This document shows positions 21,326 to 28,431 of a stretch of 64,000 nt of DNA, one piece after another. The notes beneath the pieces are model-generated. The model had not been told where the DNA came from. It saw only the letters and a program-made list of their open reading frames with translations, and searched no databases. Every line of letters begins with the position of its first letter. Within the stretch, counting starts at the first letter, position 1. Origin of the DNA: Sarcomyxa edulis (Eukaryota > Basidiomycota > Agaricomycetes > Agaricales > Mycenaceae); NCBI GenBank assembly GCA_009761415.1, contig QUOL01000001.1, forward strand, positions 2,852,001 through 2,916,000, read 5' to 3'. The translations under genes and the position numbers were made by a program.

Positions 21326-22715
21326 TTGGCAACGTCGAGCTCAGCCCAGCCACCATCGAGCCCAACATCCATGGCCGCACCTACTCCCCTGCAAGCCCAC
21401 TCTATAAACTTGACTCTACAGTTTCTAACTCTTTCGCAACGTGAAGCAGAACCTCTTCCTCCTCACCTCATCTCAAAACCTCTTTTACAGCGCCACCATT
21501 TCCTTCAACTCTCCCCGGACGACCCATCCTCGTACCTCTCTTGGCCATCTGACACCGACACTGAGACTGGCATAATTGGAAACCTTCTGCAGTCTTACAT
21601 ACCCCCTGTCGACGATACTCAATACTCAAACTACCCCGTTCGGTATACCTCTGACACTGAGACCACTTGCGCGCACGTACACATTCTTCCTCCTGTACCG
21701 TACACCCGCATTACATCCGGTCGAAAAGCAAGCAACCCTGCACTCTCAGCTGAGCATGATAATCCACTCTCCGATGGTCAGCTGGGCTCTACCACGGACC
21801 CGGCTCTCCGCTTAGTATTTCTGTGGGATCACCAAGACGGATCTTGGAAATATCACGACGCGGGTCTCATGCCTTTCCCCCCGCATAGCTATTCCTCTCT
21901 TGTCGACGCGCTATCTAGTACGAACACCATGTCTCGCCTACATGAGGACTTTCTAGACGATCCATCACTCGTTCCTGATCCTGATCAAGGTGAGGATGAA
22001 GATGCCTATTGGGCGGCCTATGGCCAGCAAAATCACGATGGCGAAGATCAGGACGATGACGAGCGATGGCCTCAGCAGGATCCAAAACCCAGCGTACCGG
22101 TAGCTTCTTCCGCGTTCAGCAGTATTACCAAAGCTAATGTATCATTACAGGAAAAGGAACTGTCAGAAGACGCCTACTGGGCTCAATATTCTATCGTGCA
22201 CGGTACGCATAACGTCTGGTCCATATCTATATCAGCACTTCACTAATAGATGTGGCGGTTCAGGTTCAGGAGACTCTACAATTCCCTCGCCCATCCCAAA
22301 TCAAGGACGCAAATTCGGACATCCGCCATCAGTGCCTCTCGTCATAAACTCGCGAAGCATATCCCAGACGGAACCTCTATCAACTCGTCCTTGCCCAAAA
22401 GCTCTTACCGAGCGCCTCAACGCCCTTCCACCGCGGCCACGATCCCCACCTCCACTCCACGACGACGATAGCAGTGGATCCCATCATGACCATGATCCTC
22501 CCAGAGAAATCGTGGATCTAAGTGCCCAGGACAGAACTGATTCTGCCAGTGATGAATCTTTGAGAGATACTATCCGAGGCGTGTATCAGCTTTGGAGACG
22601 TGGGAGGGCGCCGGCCAAGGCTAATATGAACGGTGGGAATGAGGGCGAGAGCAGGGTGTTCTTAGATTTGGTTCGGGAGGCTGTTGCTGATGACTACGTC
22701 CAACGTTCATTATGA
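21326..22715 (+). CDS. Conserved fungal protein of unknown function with repeated DAYWAxY motif
   Basis: Two exons, 21326..22202 and 22264..22715, join in phase to 442 residues. I do not recognise a named domain. The N-terminal part has alternating conserved-looking segments (SINLTLQFLTLSQREAEPLP, 'YLSWPSDTD', 'LRLVFLWDHQDGSWKYHDAGLMPFP'). A strongly acidic middle carries two copies of a short motif, EDEDAYWAAYGQQ and LSEDAYWAQYS, about 55 residues apart. The C-terminal part is Pro/Asp/His-rich and ends with a predicted helical segment (DESLRDTIRGVYQLWRRGR, 'VFLDLVREAVADDYVQRSL'). No signal peptide or membrane span is seen, so it is probably nuclear or cytosolic. A later start at 21371 (MAAPTPLQ) is possible. 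The TIR element begins only 39 bp after its stop codon, so its 3' UTR or terminator is probably altered. Confidence 0.65.
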
Positions 22716-22745
22716 TTGATGATGATTGGCATCTTGAGCTTGATG

Positions 22746-22754
22746 TCTATATGC
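22746..22754 (+). repeat. Target site duplication, left copy (TCTATATGC)
   Basis: Nine bases identical to 28423..28431, directly outside the left inverted repeat. If the first T matches by chance, the duplication is 8 bp. Confidence 0.8.
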
Positions 22755-22869
22755 TAGTCTCGTTCCCCATCCGTTCGGTGCGATCCGAGCGGAGTTTAAA
22801 AAAGTTGTGCAGAACACGCACCAGAACGTCTGGTGCACTTGGTAGTGAGAGCCCCCCCATCGAGTCACA
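22755..22869 (+). repeat. Left terminal inverted repeat
   Basis: About 115 bp. Compared with the right end read in reverse, four blocks are shared in the same order: the outer 25 bp (TAGTCTCGT ... CCATCCGTTCGGT, one single-base gap), TTGTGCAGAA (22805-22814), CCAGAACGTCTGGTGCA (22821-22837) and CCCCCCATCGAGTCACA (22853-22869). Sequence between blocks has diverged. Confidence 0.82.
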
Positions 22870-22944
22870 GTGTGACCGAATGTAACGAGCGCGTCAAATT
22901 TTCGTACATATAAGTCCTGCTTTGCCGTATCAACTGCACTCTAT

Positions 22945-25673
22945 ATGGACTCGGAGACAGCAGATTGGAATAATGTTTTCTTACATGATGATGACTACGA
23001 TGACTCCTCAACATATTCCTCTGGCTCCGACCCGGATTACAACCCCATACTGGAGTCAGATACCTCAGAATCCGAGAGCGAAGATGACAGCACAGGCCCA
23101 TCTATACAACTGAAATACACCCGGTATTTGAGGGAAAAGCTGCAAGGGAACATGGCAATGAAAGTGAAGACAGTCCTCCATGCAATGGATGCTGTAGGGA
23201 TCAATCTTCCTATCTTTCTGGATGCACTGAGCTGGGGAGATGGAGATTGCACGACGGACAGCAAAATTCGGTATGCTCGATCGGCTTTAATGACCAGCGA
23301 AGAGCTCCCCAAGGTTTTACGACGGTGGTGGAAGCCTCCTCGATCTGCCGCATCACATAAGTCGAGACCGAAAGGAGCGCGGTTGGCCATGTCGGATTTC
23401 GCGTTCGAGTGCATTCGCGACACCGTCGAGAGGGAATTGGATGGCATTGCGGATTATTTACGGTCTCCGGCTGGGAAAGACGTAACGGAAGAGGAGCTAA
23501 CATCAATGGGACTGGAAGAAATGAGCATGCAAATGAAAAAGGACGCGCCTTATTTATGGCGATTGCTTCACAGGATGGCGTGTACACCTGAGCAAGAAGC
23601 GAATAATACGATGAAAACCCCCGATAAGGCGAGTAATCTTTAGCCTGTTCGAAGTCTTGTATTGATTTCTTTGTAGATTATACTCACAGTAATCATGATG
23701 CTCTCGTATACACGAAATCACCATCGAAATCGGTTCCAAAAGATGCTGACAATGTACCTGAAATTCCGTGGACTGTCAGCTAAAGGTTTTGACACTCTAC
23801 ACGCACTGGCACTTACGATGAGTCACAAGTGGAGCGCCAATTCTGTTGCCCGCATGTCCAACGCAGCAATGCGCGAGGTTGTATGGATGATGGACCGATT
23901 TCCGTGGCTCCTATCCTATGACAATGTTCAACTGCCATTCCGGGTTTTCTCGCAACGCCTAGATAACCGAGGGGAATTCGGAAACGGAACAGCCGCCACT
24001 GTTTATATCAAACGAAGCGCCAGACCGTTACCTGCCAGTGCTAACCGTGATTTGCAAGAGCGTCGAGCAGAAGGAATGAAGAATCCACTTACCATGCTCG
24101 ACATCATGGACATAGCTACGGAATCTTTCCCGCAGATCCAGAAGTGGCAGGTATACCATGTCCTCCGATTTCTCCTGGATGCGCCCGAGTTCGACTTCAA
24201 AACTTATCGAGGCAACGGCAGTGAGCTTTTCGATCCACCGATTGCACAACATCAACTGCCGTCTGGTCCGGAACATGTCACATTGCAATACCTTCTCGGG
24301 ACAGTCAATATTCCCGAGGCGAGCTACGAAGATCACGGACGACTATTGAACGAGTGGTTCAATCAGCTCAAAATGAACAATTTGGAAGAAAAAATGAAGC
24401 TTGCCCTCGAGAAATTAATCGCATTCGCTGGCGACCAATTGACGATTGATCGACTCCGAGGTTTATTCAAATTTCGGGCGGAGGATCTGAACTCGTTTGA
24501 CCGTCTGGATTGGGTGCTTCTACCGTTCGGATGGTTCCATCTTCAGATGGCATTTGCGAACTCGCTGCATAAGCAATATCTTGGTACCTCAAGGGGGAGA
24601 GGCCTCAGCCAAGCATTTGACCTGCTGAAGAGGAAAGGATTGGGATCAGTGTCCACGAAGGGAGTGTTTCATCACGATTTGAATGAAGCATTATACCATG
24701 TTGCAGAGGCGCACATACGCGTGGACTGGCTTCTCGCTAGTGGGGCAAAAAGTCTTGCAGAGCTGCGAAACAAGAATCCGGAGGAGCTGAAAAGTTTTGC
24801 GGAAAAGATCGTCCAGAATCACGCCTCGAGTGAAGCCCTTGATCGTATGGATGCAAAGCCTAAAGAGCAACGAGACAAGGTTAAACGGCAGACGATTATG
24901 TGGAATAGAGACGTCTTACAATACATCGTTCTCAATCACGCAATCAAGACAGGAAACGTTGGTATAATGGAAGATATGCTTCCCCATCTTCTTTTCCGTT
25001 TTGTCGGCGGGAATAATTCGAACTATGCTGCCGAGATCTTGGAGCTTCTACAGGGCCTTCGCAAGGAGTGGACTCCTGAAGTAAGGTATGTAAGAATCCG
25101 AGTCTAATTGGGAGAGAACAAGTGACGGACCAAGAAACAACAGATCCTTCGTTCGAGATCATTGCTGGGTAGTAAATTTCACCGGTAATCCGGGTGATTT
25201 TTTGCCTGTTGATAAGGCTCAAGAGCACAATATAAAAGACATCAAGGTACGAAAGAAGCTTTCCAAAAGATAGAACCCACACTCACATATAAAAGGTAAC
25301 ATATCGATCGGAAGGTCCTAATATCCATTGGGAATATCTCAAAAAATTGCACCCTGCGGTACGCATCATTCGCGCTCTTGCCGCGCATATGGAGAAAGAG
25401 TTTGGGACATTAACGAGAGGTAAGAAACATACCACGCCACAGAAAGAACTCGATGTACAGAAGCTCTTCGAGTCATACACGGCTGCGGGGATGCACGACT
25501 ACAAACCGGGCCGTAAAGTCTCGAAAGGCGATCGGGCAGAGGATTACACGACAAAAGGATGTCTCGAGTTGCAGAAGGGTAAGATGCTTGAGAGATGGGT
25601 AGACGGGCGAAGCTTTGCACGGGCTACAACGCAAGATTGGGAGTCGTCCTACTCGGATCTAGAATCTGGCTGA
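22945..25673 (+). CDS. DUF6589 protein, candidate transposase of the element
   Basis: Four exons (22945..23628, 23677..25085, 25144..25246, 25296..25673) give 857 residues without a break. The first intron has a GC donor (AAG|GCGAGT). The N-terminus is acidic (DDDYDDSSTYSSGSDPDYN), followed by a helical region and then a long conserved part I recognise as DUF6589, abundant in mushroom-forming fungi: 'IILTVIMMLSYTRNHHRN', 'WLLSYDNVQLPFRVFSQRLDN', 'IAFAGDQLTIDRLRGLFKF', 'LLPFGWFHLQMAFANSLHKQ', 'FHHDLNEALYHVAEAHIR', 'LLFRFVGGNNSNYAAEIL' and 'EHNIKDIKVTYRSEGPNI'. Hydrophobic-strand contexts place acidic residues at D310 (SYDN) and D481 (AGDQ), with E565 or E572 in a downstream helix, the layout expected of an RNase H-like DDE enzyme. 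That catalytic reading is my inference; the family has no assigned function that I know of. Confidence 0.8.
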
Positions 25674-25721
25674 AAAATAAGAGGTTCTATTTCGCTTTTC
25701 TACAGGATGCGAGGTATGGAA

Positions 25722-28231
25722 TCAGGGTTTCTTAGGGATATAGGAAGGTCCTGGCATATATGGAGTTGAATAGCGAGGCCCAGAAATGCTGTCAGAGAAG
25801 CTCGTAGCAGTAGGGGATGGCATGTAGTACATCCAACCTGGAGGAATTGGATAAGGCACTGCTATCATTCCCGCAGTCTGAAGTGACTGATGAGAGACCG
25901 CAACACAATCATATCCAATGAAATCCACTTGCCTGTGCTCTCAGTAAAGGCTGATGAACGGTGTTGTATGTTGAGGAACCTACGAGTGCTGGTAGACCAC
26001 CATCTTCTCTTACCAACATCCTCCTTCTCCTTGTGTCTTCAACTCGTCGCTCCTCTGTTTCCCTTCTTTTCTCAGCTCTTTTAGCTTCCTGGGCCCTCTT
26101 TCGCTGATCCTTATCCGCTTCGTCTAACCTTCCAATAAGTTCTAATACCTCCTGGCCATGTCGATCGGCGAAGATCCATTGCGGTTTGAGCACTTGCATG
26201 TCTTCAATAGTTTTGATACGCGCATTGGATGCGAGGGTGGTAAGTGATTTGTCAGGGAGAATTGCGACTGCAGTGAATGGGCTCGGAGAGTACTGACGCA
26301 GCTTGGTCTCGTAACGCCAGTTCTCCAGAGCAGCGCGTACATTTTTTAGATGCTGTCCCCGCCGAGTTGCTGGCCCATTCCCTCGAGTACTGCGGGATTT
26401 GTTCATGGTGCGTTTTCCATTTTCATTTCTGGTCTTCGATGGTGTGGAATGGGTACTACTGGGTGGAGAGTTTGCCTCGGGGGCAGGGGTACGTGGGCGT
26501 TCCATTTCGGTATCGTCGAAATGCGTAATTGAAGACTTGTTCAGATTCTCTGTACACCGATCGCAACATGCACCTGTGGGTGCTTCAAAAAGCAATGGTA
26601 AGTGTCAGGAATACCTTCGTTCAACGGGATGAACTCACGTATATGCCGAGGAGGATTATCAAAATATTCGTCTACCATGTCACGACGACAAAGAATTGTC
26701 TCGATATACCGGCGTAATGCTTCCTCAACATTCTTTGCCCATTCCAGTTCCTCCTCTTCTATACCATTCTCTGCCTCACTTTCTGAACTAGATTCTGAAC
26801 TACCTGATTCAGATGCAGAGCTGCTCCCTGCCTTGGTCTTGTGTCGCCTACCCCCAGGTTTCCTTTTCTTCCTACGCTGGAACATTGACTCCTCAACAAG
26901 GAGGGTTGCTCGGGCTTGGATATTTGGTGAGCGGCCTGCACGTCCAGCTCTTTGAATCCACATTGATAACGATGAGGGGATGCCAAACTGGATGACGTGT
27001 TTGATATCAGGAATATCGGCACCCTTCAAATTTTTGTAGTAAGCATGGTATACAACAATAATATTACAAGGCTAACGTACCATCCCAGCTGCCTCTGTTG
27101 CAATCAGAAGCTTGATCTCGCTACTCCGGAATCGTTTCATCACCTCGCTTTTGGCTTTTGGTGTCCGATGCGAATGCAGATAATCGATATATTTATGTAG
27201 ATGAGGTGGGTATCTCCTCCGGATGTATCGGCAGAGAATTTGAGTTTCGTTGACAGTGTTAGTGAATATAATGGTTTTTTCGAAGTCGTCCGGGGATGAG
27301 ACTTCTTTGGGAAGAAGATCGTTGAGGGCACTGTAGTCCGTCTTGTTTTTCATTGTCTTGACAGACATGGTGATATTAGGACGGTCATTTCCAAGATTTA
27401 GAAAAAACGACCGAGGAAGATCAATAAGTAAGTTTGTGCAGACATCATCAAGAGCTGATGGTGTAAGCGTAGCTGAAGTTGCCAGGATAGGAACAGATGG
27501 AGGCATAAATGCGCGTAGTTTATTCAATAGAGCATATGGAGGACGAAAATCACCGCCCCACTGTGAGATGCAGTGTGCTTCGTCCACTATCACAGCGAGA
27601 ATATCTTTTGTAGTTTCCTTCGAAGTCAGCCATTTACGAAATTCGGGATGCTCGATGCACATTTCCGGAGAAGTCAATATAGCCTGGTATTTGTGCTCCT
27701 CAAGACTCTGGAAATGGTAGAGTATATACATAAGCGAGGGAGTTCTGAGTTTCTCATTGTACTCACTTTTTTGAGTTTTGGACTCCATGTATCCCCGTTC
27801 ACTGCTACGGCAGAGATATCCATCTTCTTGAATCGCGAAGCCTGTGGATATATGCTCAGTTTCATCTCCATATAGAGTATGTAGATTCTCCGACATACCT
27901 GGTCTTTCTGAAGCACTTTCAAGGGGGATATGATGATCTCGAGCTTATTCTTTCGTAGCATTAACGGCATCATGAACGGCATTGTCTTTCCAGCACCGGT
28001 ACCAGCAATCAGGACAGTGTCAAGACCTAGTACAATTGCTTCGGATATGTCAAGCTGCCATGCGTACGGGGCACGGCCAAAACGCTGGACAAAGATTTCC
28101 TCGATTGTACGTCGCGTCTGCGCAGAATCATATCCAGATTTAGAGCGAGCGGTTCCCCGAGATGAATTAAGGTTATTATAAGAGCGCGTGTGAGCCTTCT
28201 CGAGCCGTTCTTGACGTGATTGAGAAGCCAT
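25722..28231 (-). CDS. RecQ-like DNA helicase carried by the element
   Basis: Six exons (27899..28231, 27767..27841, 27081..27707, 26639..27023, 25933..26573, 25722..25877) join in phase to 738 residues. Motifs: YAWQLDI (Q/motif 0, 56-62), Walker A GTGAGKT (77-83), 'ISPLKVLQKDQ', DEAH followed by CISQWGGDFRP (178-181, the RecQ motif II and aromatic loop), 'ILATSATLTP', 'IIFTNTVNETQILCRYIRR', 'LIATEAAGMGADIPDIKHVI' and motif VI QRAGRAGRSP (369-378). A Cys cluster ACCDRC (475-480) follows, where RecQ proteins have their zinc-binding region. After it comes a Ser/Pro-rich linker, a coiled basic stretch (KRRETEERRVEDTRRRR) and a Pro/Tyr-rich tail. The last intron appears to use a GC donor (CAG|GCAAGT). 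No RQC or HRDC domain is evident. A start at 28330, inside the inverted repeat, is possible but adds an unlike N-terminus. It is a truncated-type RecQ, probably acting with the convergent gene. Confidence 0.85.
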
Positions 28232-28294
28232 CAAAGTTGAGAAGTCGGGGAACGGGACACAAAAGGAGCACGTTTTGCGCTCCATTTGGGCGTG

Positions 28295-28422
28295 TGTGAC
28301 TCGATGGGGGGTCACACACCTGAAATGCACCAGACGTTCTGGTCCGATTTCTGCACAATATTTTCACTATCCGATTCAAGGTCCGATACGGAACTCGGAC
28401 CGAACGGATGGGGACGAGACTA
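28295..28422 (-). repeat. Right terminal inverted repeat
   Basis: About 128 bp, the reverse-complement partner of the left end with the same four blocks in order and slightly longer spacing. The inner part also forms a local hairpin: GTGTGTGAC and its partner GTCACACAC flank the C-rich block. It ends 63 bp upstream of the helicase start codon. Confidence 0.82.
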
Positions 28423-28431
28423 TCTATATGC
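28423..28431 (+). repeat. Target site duplication, right copy (TCTATATGC)
   Basis: Nine bases identical to the left copy, directly after the element's last bases (CGAGACTA). Confidence 0.8.

Follow-up and report, generated by a model that had tools for sequence, protein, structure and literature searches.

AcademH, the helicase-encoding lineage of the Academ DNA transposons, was reportedly described by Kojima in 2020 (Mob DNA 11:15). AcademH elements make target-site duplications of 9 or 10 bp and AcademX elements duplications of 3 or 4 bp, lengths that the author ties to the encoded helicase and nuclease, respectively (PMC10045372), and AcademH has been described from Basidiomycota, Ascomycota and Mucoromycota, where its copy number is low (PMC10799480). 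Recognizable protein domains, PF00270 and recQ_fam among them, are present in 81% of the Academ copies of fungi, and genome annotations often list such elements as host genes (PMC6416283). In the mushroom Marasmius oreades, insertions of putative non-autonomous Academ elements are widespread (PMC8290104). We analysed a stretch of 64,000 nucleotides from Sarcomyxa edulis (the whole of which is called the window here) and found at 22755–28422 a genuine transposon that is complete, well supported and of an ordinary kind, and that carries a gene for a DUF6589 protein and a gene for a RecQ-family helicase. It is very probably an autonomous-looking DNA transposon of the AcademH type, with DUF6589 as its DDE transposase.

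The whole transposon (5668 bp; no strand assigned) begins TAGTCTCG, finishes CGAGACTA and is flanked by a perfect 9-bp target-site duplication, TCTATATGC, at 22746–22754 on the left and 28423–28431 on the right (likewise without strand). Its left terminal inverted repeat region (22755–22869, plus strand; first letters TAGTCTCGTTCCCCATCCGTT) and right terminal inverted repeat region (28295–28422, minus strand; last letters GGGGACGAGACTA) align over 132 columns with a score of 115, compared with a maximum of 26 in 500 shuffles; the two arms are ~74% identical. A blind scan for any inverted end with matching 8–11-bp flanks, made in nine regions of 20–21 kb, returned 12 candidates, and the element was the sole candidate in its region. 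Only three were kept, those in the window and on C11 and C13 (the window is part of a 35.6-Mb genome in 40 contigs, here labelled C and numbered); a 9-bp candidate on C5, with 3 mismatches in 12, a length of 11 kb and unlike ends, was taken as chance, as were eight further candidates. Helitrons have no target duplication and no inverted ends, and this class was rejected since both are present. In the stretch 22104–22754, the left duplication begins 31 bp past the stop codon (22713–22715) of a long plus-strand frame, and the insertion site probably lies at the 3′ end of a host gene.

The element encodes two convergent genes, both open in frame after splicing. The transposase gene, on the plus strand, consists of four exons (22945–23632, 23690–25085, 25144–25246 and, including the stop codon, 25296–25673) separated by three GT–AG introns, and encodes 854 amino acids. 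Most of DUF6589 lies in exon 2, where Pfam places PF20231 on the frame at 23677–25104 (E = 7.7e-98). A structure model of DUF6589 has the strand order of an RNase H-like fold in which a helical insertion comes ahead of the last catalytic residue, and the nearest solved folds, obtained with a second-look aligner, are those of the hAT (Hermes) and P element transposases. The model and conservation support a DDE transposase with a proposed triad of D307 (codon 23920–23922), D478 in GDQLT (24433–24435) and E722 in QEHNIKDIK (25223–25225), all on the plus strand. E722 was preferred as the glutamate because it is E in 47/47 aligned relatives, its position falls on helix 651–669 in the model of a relative, after the helical insertion, and its motif (E..N...K-like) recurs in the frames of loci L003, L005 and L007; the pattern was not found in L006, L009 and L010 (three of the six frames inspected), possibly because of introns. 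Another glutamate, at residue 453 of the exon-2 frame (NYAAE), was first taken for the catalytic one. It was abandoned on two grounds: the C13 copy carries H at this position, and the alignments of the exon-2 model to PDB structures stop at Hermes residue 565 and P element residue 525, before the catalytic glutamates of these proteins (residues 572 and 531). The initial annotation had placed none of the proteins in a nameable transposase family, a view that the modelling of DUF6589 as a DDE transposase does not support. Of 40 aligned proteins, 39 have D at the position encoded by 24955–24957 and the window transposase alone has N, so that the word intact, as first applied to this element, holds for its open reading frames.

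At least 299 relatives of DUF6589 were found, and among the 120 listed every fungus-named one comes from a mushroom-group fungus. Scans of viral and prokaryote contigs yielded no DUF6589 relatives, and a Foldseek comparison with viral models produced no match at E ≤ 0.001. A search among proteins upwards of about 1120 amino acids yielded a single fungal protein with PF20231 as its sole listed domain. In maize MuDR, too, long inverted ends enclose two convergent genes and the duplication is 9 bp, the partner gene being other than a helicase, and the same architecture would be seen if the window element were a MuDR/MULE element that had captured its helicase. We consider such an origin very unlikely. 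No MULE family occurs in the Pfam list of exon pieces at E ≤ 1 (absence from the list does not amount to exclusion), and the C/DxxH motif, which lies between the second D and the last E and is common to MuDR, hAT, P, Kolobok and Dada (PMC9587614), does not occur in this form in the DUF6589 proteins. Their conserved histidine sits in GWFH, the G and H of which are near-invariant in 40 aligned proteins and 11 diverse ones. The parallel with MuDR drawn in the initial annotation thus survives for the architecture and fails at this motif.

The helicase gene, on the minus strand, comprises five exons and four GT–AG introns and encodes 697 amino acids. Exon 1 (27899–28231) contains the Walker A sequence GTGAGKT, exon 2 spans 27767–27841, exon 3 (27081–27707) contains the DEAH and SAT motifs and a RecQ-like loop, HCISQWGGDFRPPY, exon 4 spans 26639–27023, and exon 5 (25909–26582, with the stop codon) begins with CCDRC; besides the splice sites, Pfam supports exons 1, 3 and 4 and the PDB search exon 3. 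Pfam matches are DEAD (E = 1.8e-21) and Helicase_C (E = 1.8e-23), along with a weak match to the RecQ zinc-binding model PF16124 (E = 0.025) at exon 5, where CRR...CCDRC in the spliced protein resembles the RecQ zinc motif. A PDB sequence search with residues 1–491 matched 176 distinct sequences; among the best 60, the first 37 are WRN, BLM, RecQ and RECQ1/4/5 chains (three of them labelled merely ATP-dependent DNA helicase), with WRN at the top (E = 1.2e-36), and RNA helicases come after these, from E = 6e-16. Judged by its sequence, the helicase belongs to the RecQ family. Ends, duplication, Pfam and PDB matches together bear out the initial annotation in its description of a complete DNA transposon with a perfect 9-bp duplication, long inverted repeats, and open, spliced genes for DUF6589 and a RecQ-like helicase. 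A RecQ helicase beside the transposase is also found in KolobokH, a fungal Kolobok lineage (PMC9587614). That the element is a KolobokH is nonetheless extremely improbable: Kolobok duplications are TTAA, 4 bp, and those of the present family, seen at 10 of 11 places, are 9 bp long and vary in sequence.

DUF6589 occurs in the genome at no fewer than nine loci (at least 21 exon matches), and no other close copy of the whole window element is listed there. Five of the nine (window, C11, C13, C17 and C19) have a convergent helicase match; at C1:2528848 the nearest helicase match is ~8 kb off and divergent, and near the C5, C6 and C10 loci there is none among the matches listed. Besides the window, look-alike ends with 9-bp duplications were found by the blind scan at C11 and C13, and C17, a copy invisible to that scan given that its left end lies outside the scanned stretch, harbours the C13 element as well. 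Between these two copies (the C13 one at C13:40213–46464) identity is 100% over 3603 and 2654 bp, spans that cover the 6252-bp element in full, and their flanks and duplications differ, which demonstrates recent movement of these relatives at the sequence level. The window copy is not dated as recent because it has no other close copy and its arms are ~74% identical; the recent movement first claimed for it holds for its relatives. The C17 copy (C17:250574–269080) contains a 12,250-bp long terminal repeat element that has two identical ends of 473 bp and a 5-bp duplication, GGGAT. The ends that copies share, their 9-bp duplications and the occurrence of two identical copies at separate sites all speak against a chance adjacency of two host genes, one for DUF6589 and one for a telomere- or repair-type RecQ helicase; some of the five loci at which ends were not found may be host genes or remnants, and for the window element we regard this explanation as having next to no likelihood.

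A pattern derived from the ends of two copies, those in the window and on C13, matched 28 sites in the genome, versus 5 for a reversed-pattern control. Seventeen of these sites fall in ten places with facing ends, seven two-mismatch sites were left out, and four are single, with no partner end in ~500 bp (C5:540065, C34:1962016, C12:2119900 and C10:265594). Together with C11, which comes from the blind scan and whose ends fail the pattern, there are 11 places with two facing ends, and a perfect 9-bp duplication is present at 10/11: in addition to the window, C11 (GGAAGGACA), C13 (CGTGACCGG), C17 (ATCAGATAT), C37 twice (CTGGACACC and AATCACTGG), C38 (GCACCTAGT), C40 (TATAATACT), a second C13 site at 231153, termed C13b (GCTCATCGT), and C39 (CAAAGCGTC). 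For pairs with both ends set by the pattern alone, the duplication is present in 6/7. The ten duplications have no strong common sequence. Most of the 20 ends match YAGWCTCSTNNCCATCCG, with a poor fit at both ends of C11 and at the right end of C13b and of C39; the left row of C39 is one base off in this comparison, the true element being 1312642–1313755. Ends of the same kind with other flanks and 9-bp duplications, which answer to part of the check on mobility proposed in the initial annotation, are present in the same genome.

Six of these places (C37 twice, C38, C40, C13b and C39) have no DUF6589 or helicase match listed and so are probably non-autonomous copies. The 1.1-kb copies C13b and C39 are ~98.5% identical over the stretches compared. 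At C37:1436988–1444813, a 7.8-kb insertion consists of a 1.4-kb short copy, 96–100% like C37:102570–103988 in the pieces compared, and ~6.4 kb of other sequence inside the right end. Short perfect hairpins lie beside some target sites, most clearly at C13b (a 19-bp palindrome) and C39. The joined flanks of the ten insertions have a mean palindrome score of 5.2, versus 3.86 in 4000 random windows (P = 0.003 and 0.004 in two tests), in a post hoc statistic to which C13b and C39 contribute most and in which the C39 flank is one base off; a preference for hairpins at target sites is a lead only.

The DUF6589 transposase would act as a nuclease of RNase H-like fold, its last catalytic residue preceded by a helical insertion as it is in hAT and P transposases. 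It would bind the inverted ends, cut both and join them to the target at points 9 bp apart on the two strands, repair then giving the 9-bp duplication. The RecQ-family helicase, transcribed from the opposite end, might help to open or process the ends or the gap, a role that agrees with the connection drawn in PMC10045372 between the encoded enzyme and the length of the duplication. Ends, duplications, family copies, gene pair and the recent movement of relatives are read from sequence; the order of cutting, movement by cut-and-paste instead of replication, and the helicase step are what we infer from them. As far as the model goes, transposase is the likely function of Pfam DUF6589. If these proteins are read as transposases, gene catalogues would no longer list them, or the RecQ helicases beside them, among host genes. 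The open genes of the window element, together with the identical copies on C13 and C17, offer a system for testing what a helicase contributes to a DDE transposon and why duplications are 9–10 bp long in Academ elements with a helicase and 3–4 bp in those with a nuclease.

Several points weigh against assigning the element to AcademH with a DUF6589 transposase. The element is filed as AcademH by its anatomy, and the homology of DUF6589 to Academ transposases is putative. In the alignment in which E722 is invariant, E612 and D652 are also conserved in 47/47, so conservation alone does not pick the catalytic glutamate. Foldseek gave no match at E ≤ 0.001 (best, Hermes, 4.2e-3), and the fold case for DUF6589 depends on the second-look aligner. 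No convincing ends were found within ~8–10 kb of five of the nine DUF6589 loci (L003, L005, L009, L010 and C19:157808–159248). The duplications in the count of 10/11 are not all independent tests: the window duplication was given beforehand, the C11 scan required a match, and the right ends of C13b and C39 were located through the duplicate in 301 bp (one exact match each, adjoining TAATCTCGG). The one pair without a duplication is C17:242796–242946.

Two of these points have possible explanations of their own. The five end-less loci may be old copies, other lineages or host genes; the four that were aligned have 17–23% identity to the window exon-2 frame. The C17 pair is a 151-bp end fragment at the centre of a perfect palindrome with arms of at least 97 bp each (C17:242700–243050), which could be a fold-back product after end breakage or an assembly artefact.

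The same anatomy could also belong to a separate, unnamed superfamily in which a DUF6589 transposase, a RecQ helicase and 9-bp duplications came together independently of Academ and are only AcademH-like. The literature searched does not mention DUF6589, has PF20231 only in an unrelated optics paper and names neither as a transposase, and RecQ helicases occur in several transposon groups, KolobokH among them (PMC9587614). We nevertheless hold a separate superfamily to be improbable, given that AcademH, as described, agrees with the element in its type of helicase, the length of its duplication, its hosts and its low copy number, and it would take a coincidence for a second, unrelated group in fungi to show these traits too. 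Unlikely as well is a superfamily of DUF6589's own that has a hAT/P-related fold, gained RecQ independently of Academ and moved here as several subfamilies with short derivatives. The undescribed superfamily suggested at the outset gives way to AcademH, under which name helicase-bearing fungal transposons with 9–10-bp duplications are already published.

Compared with known systems, the window element resembles hAT (Hermes) and P in its modelled fold, including the helical insertion that precedes the last catalytic residue in those transposases, a likeness of shared fold and not of membership. It differs from them in having no Pfam match to either at E ≤ 1 (exon pieces), GWFH in place of C/DxxH and a duplication of 9 bp, whereas that of hAT and P is 8 bp. 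MuDR is set apart by the helicase as partner gene and by the C/DxxH motif, and KolobokH, similarly fungal and with a RecQ helicase, by the TTAA duplication of Kolobok. AcademX would belong to the same superfamily if the AcademH call is right, and differs in its 3–4-bp duplications and in having a nuclease in place of the helicase. With AcademH, no difference appears among the traits compared. The element shares with that group a duplication of 9 bp within the 9–10 bp described, an internal helicase (here of the RecQ family), a DDD/E transposase as predicted by model and conservation, and a low copy number (nine DUF6589 loci and no close copy) with relatives in mushroom-group fungi.
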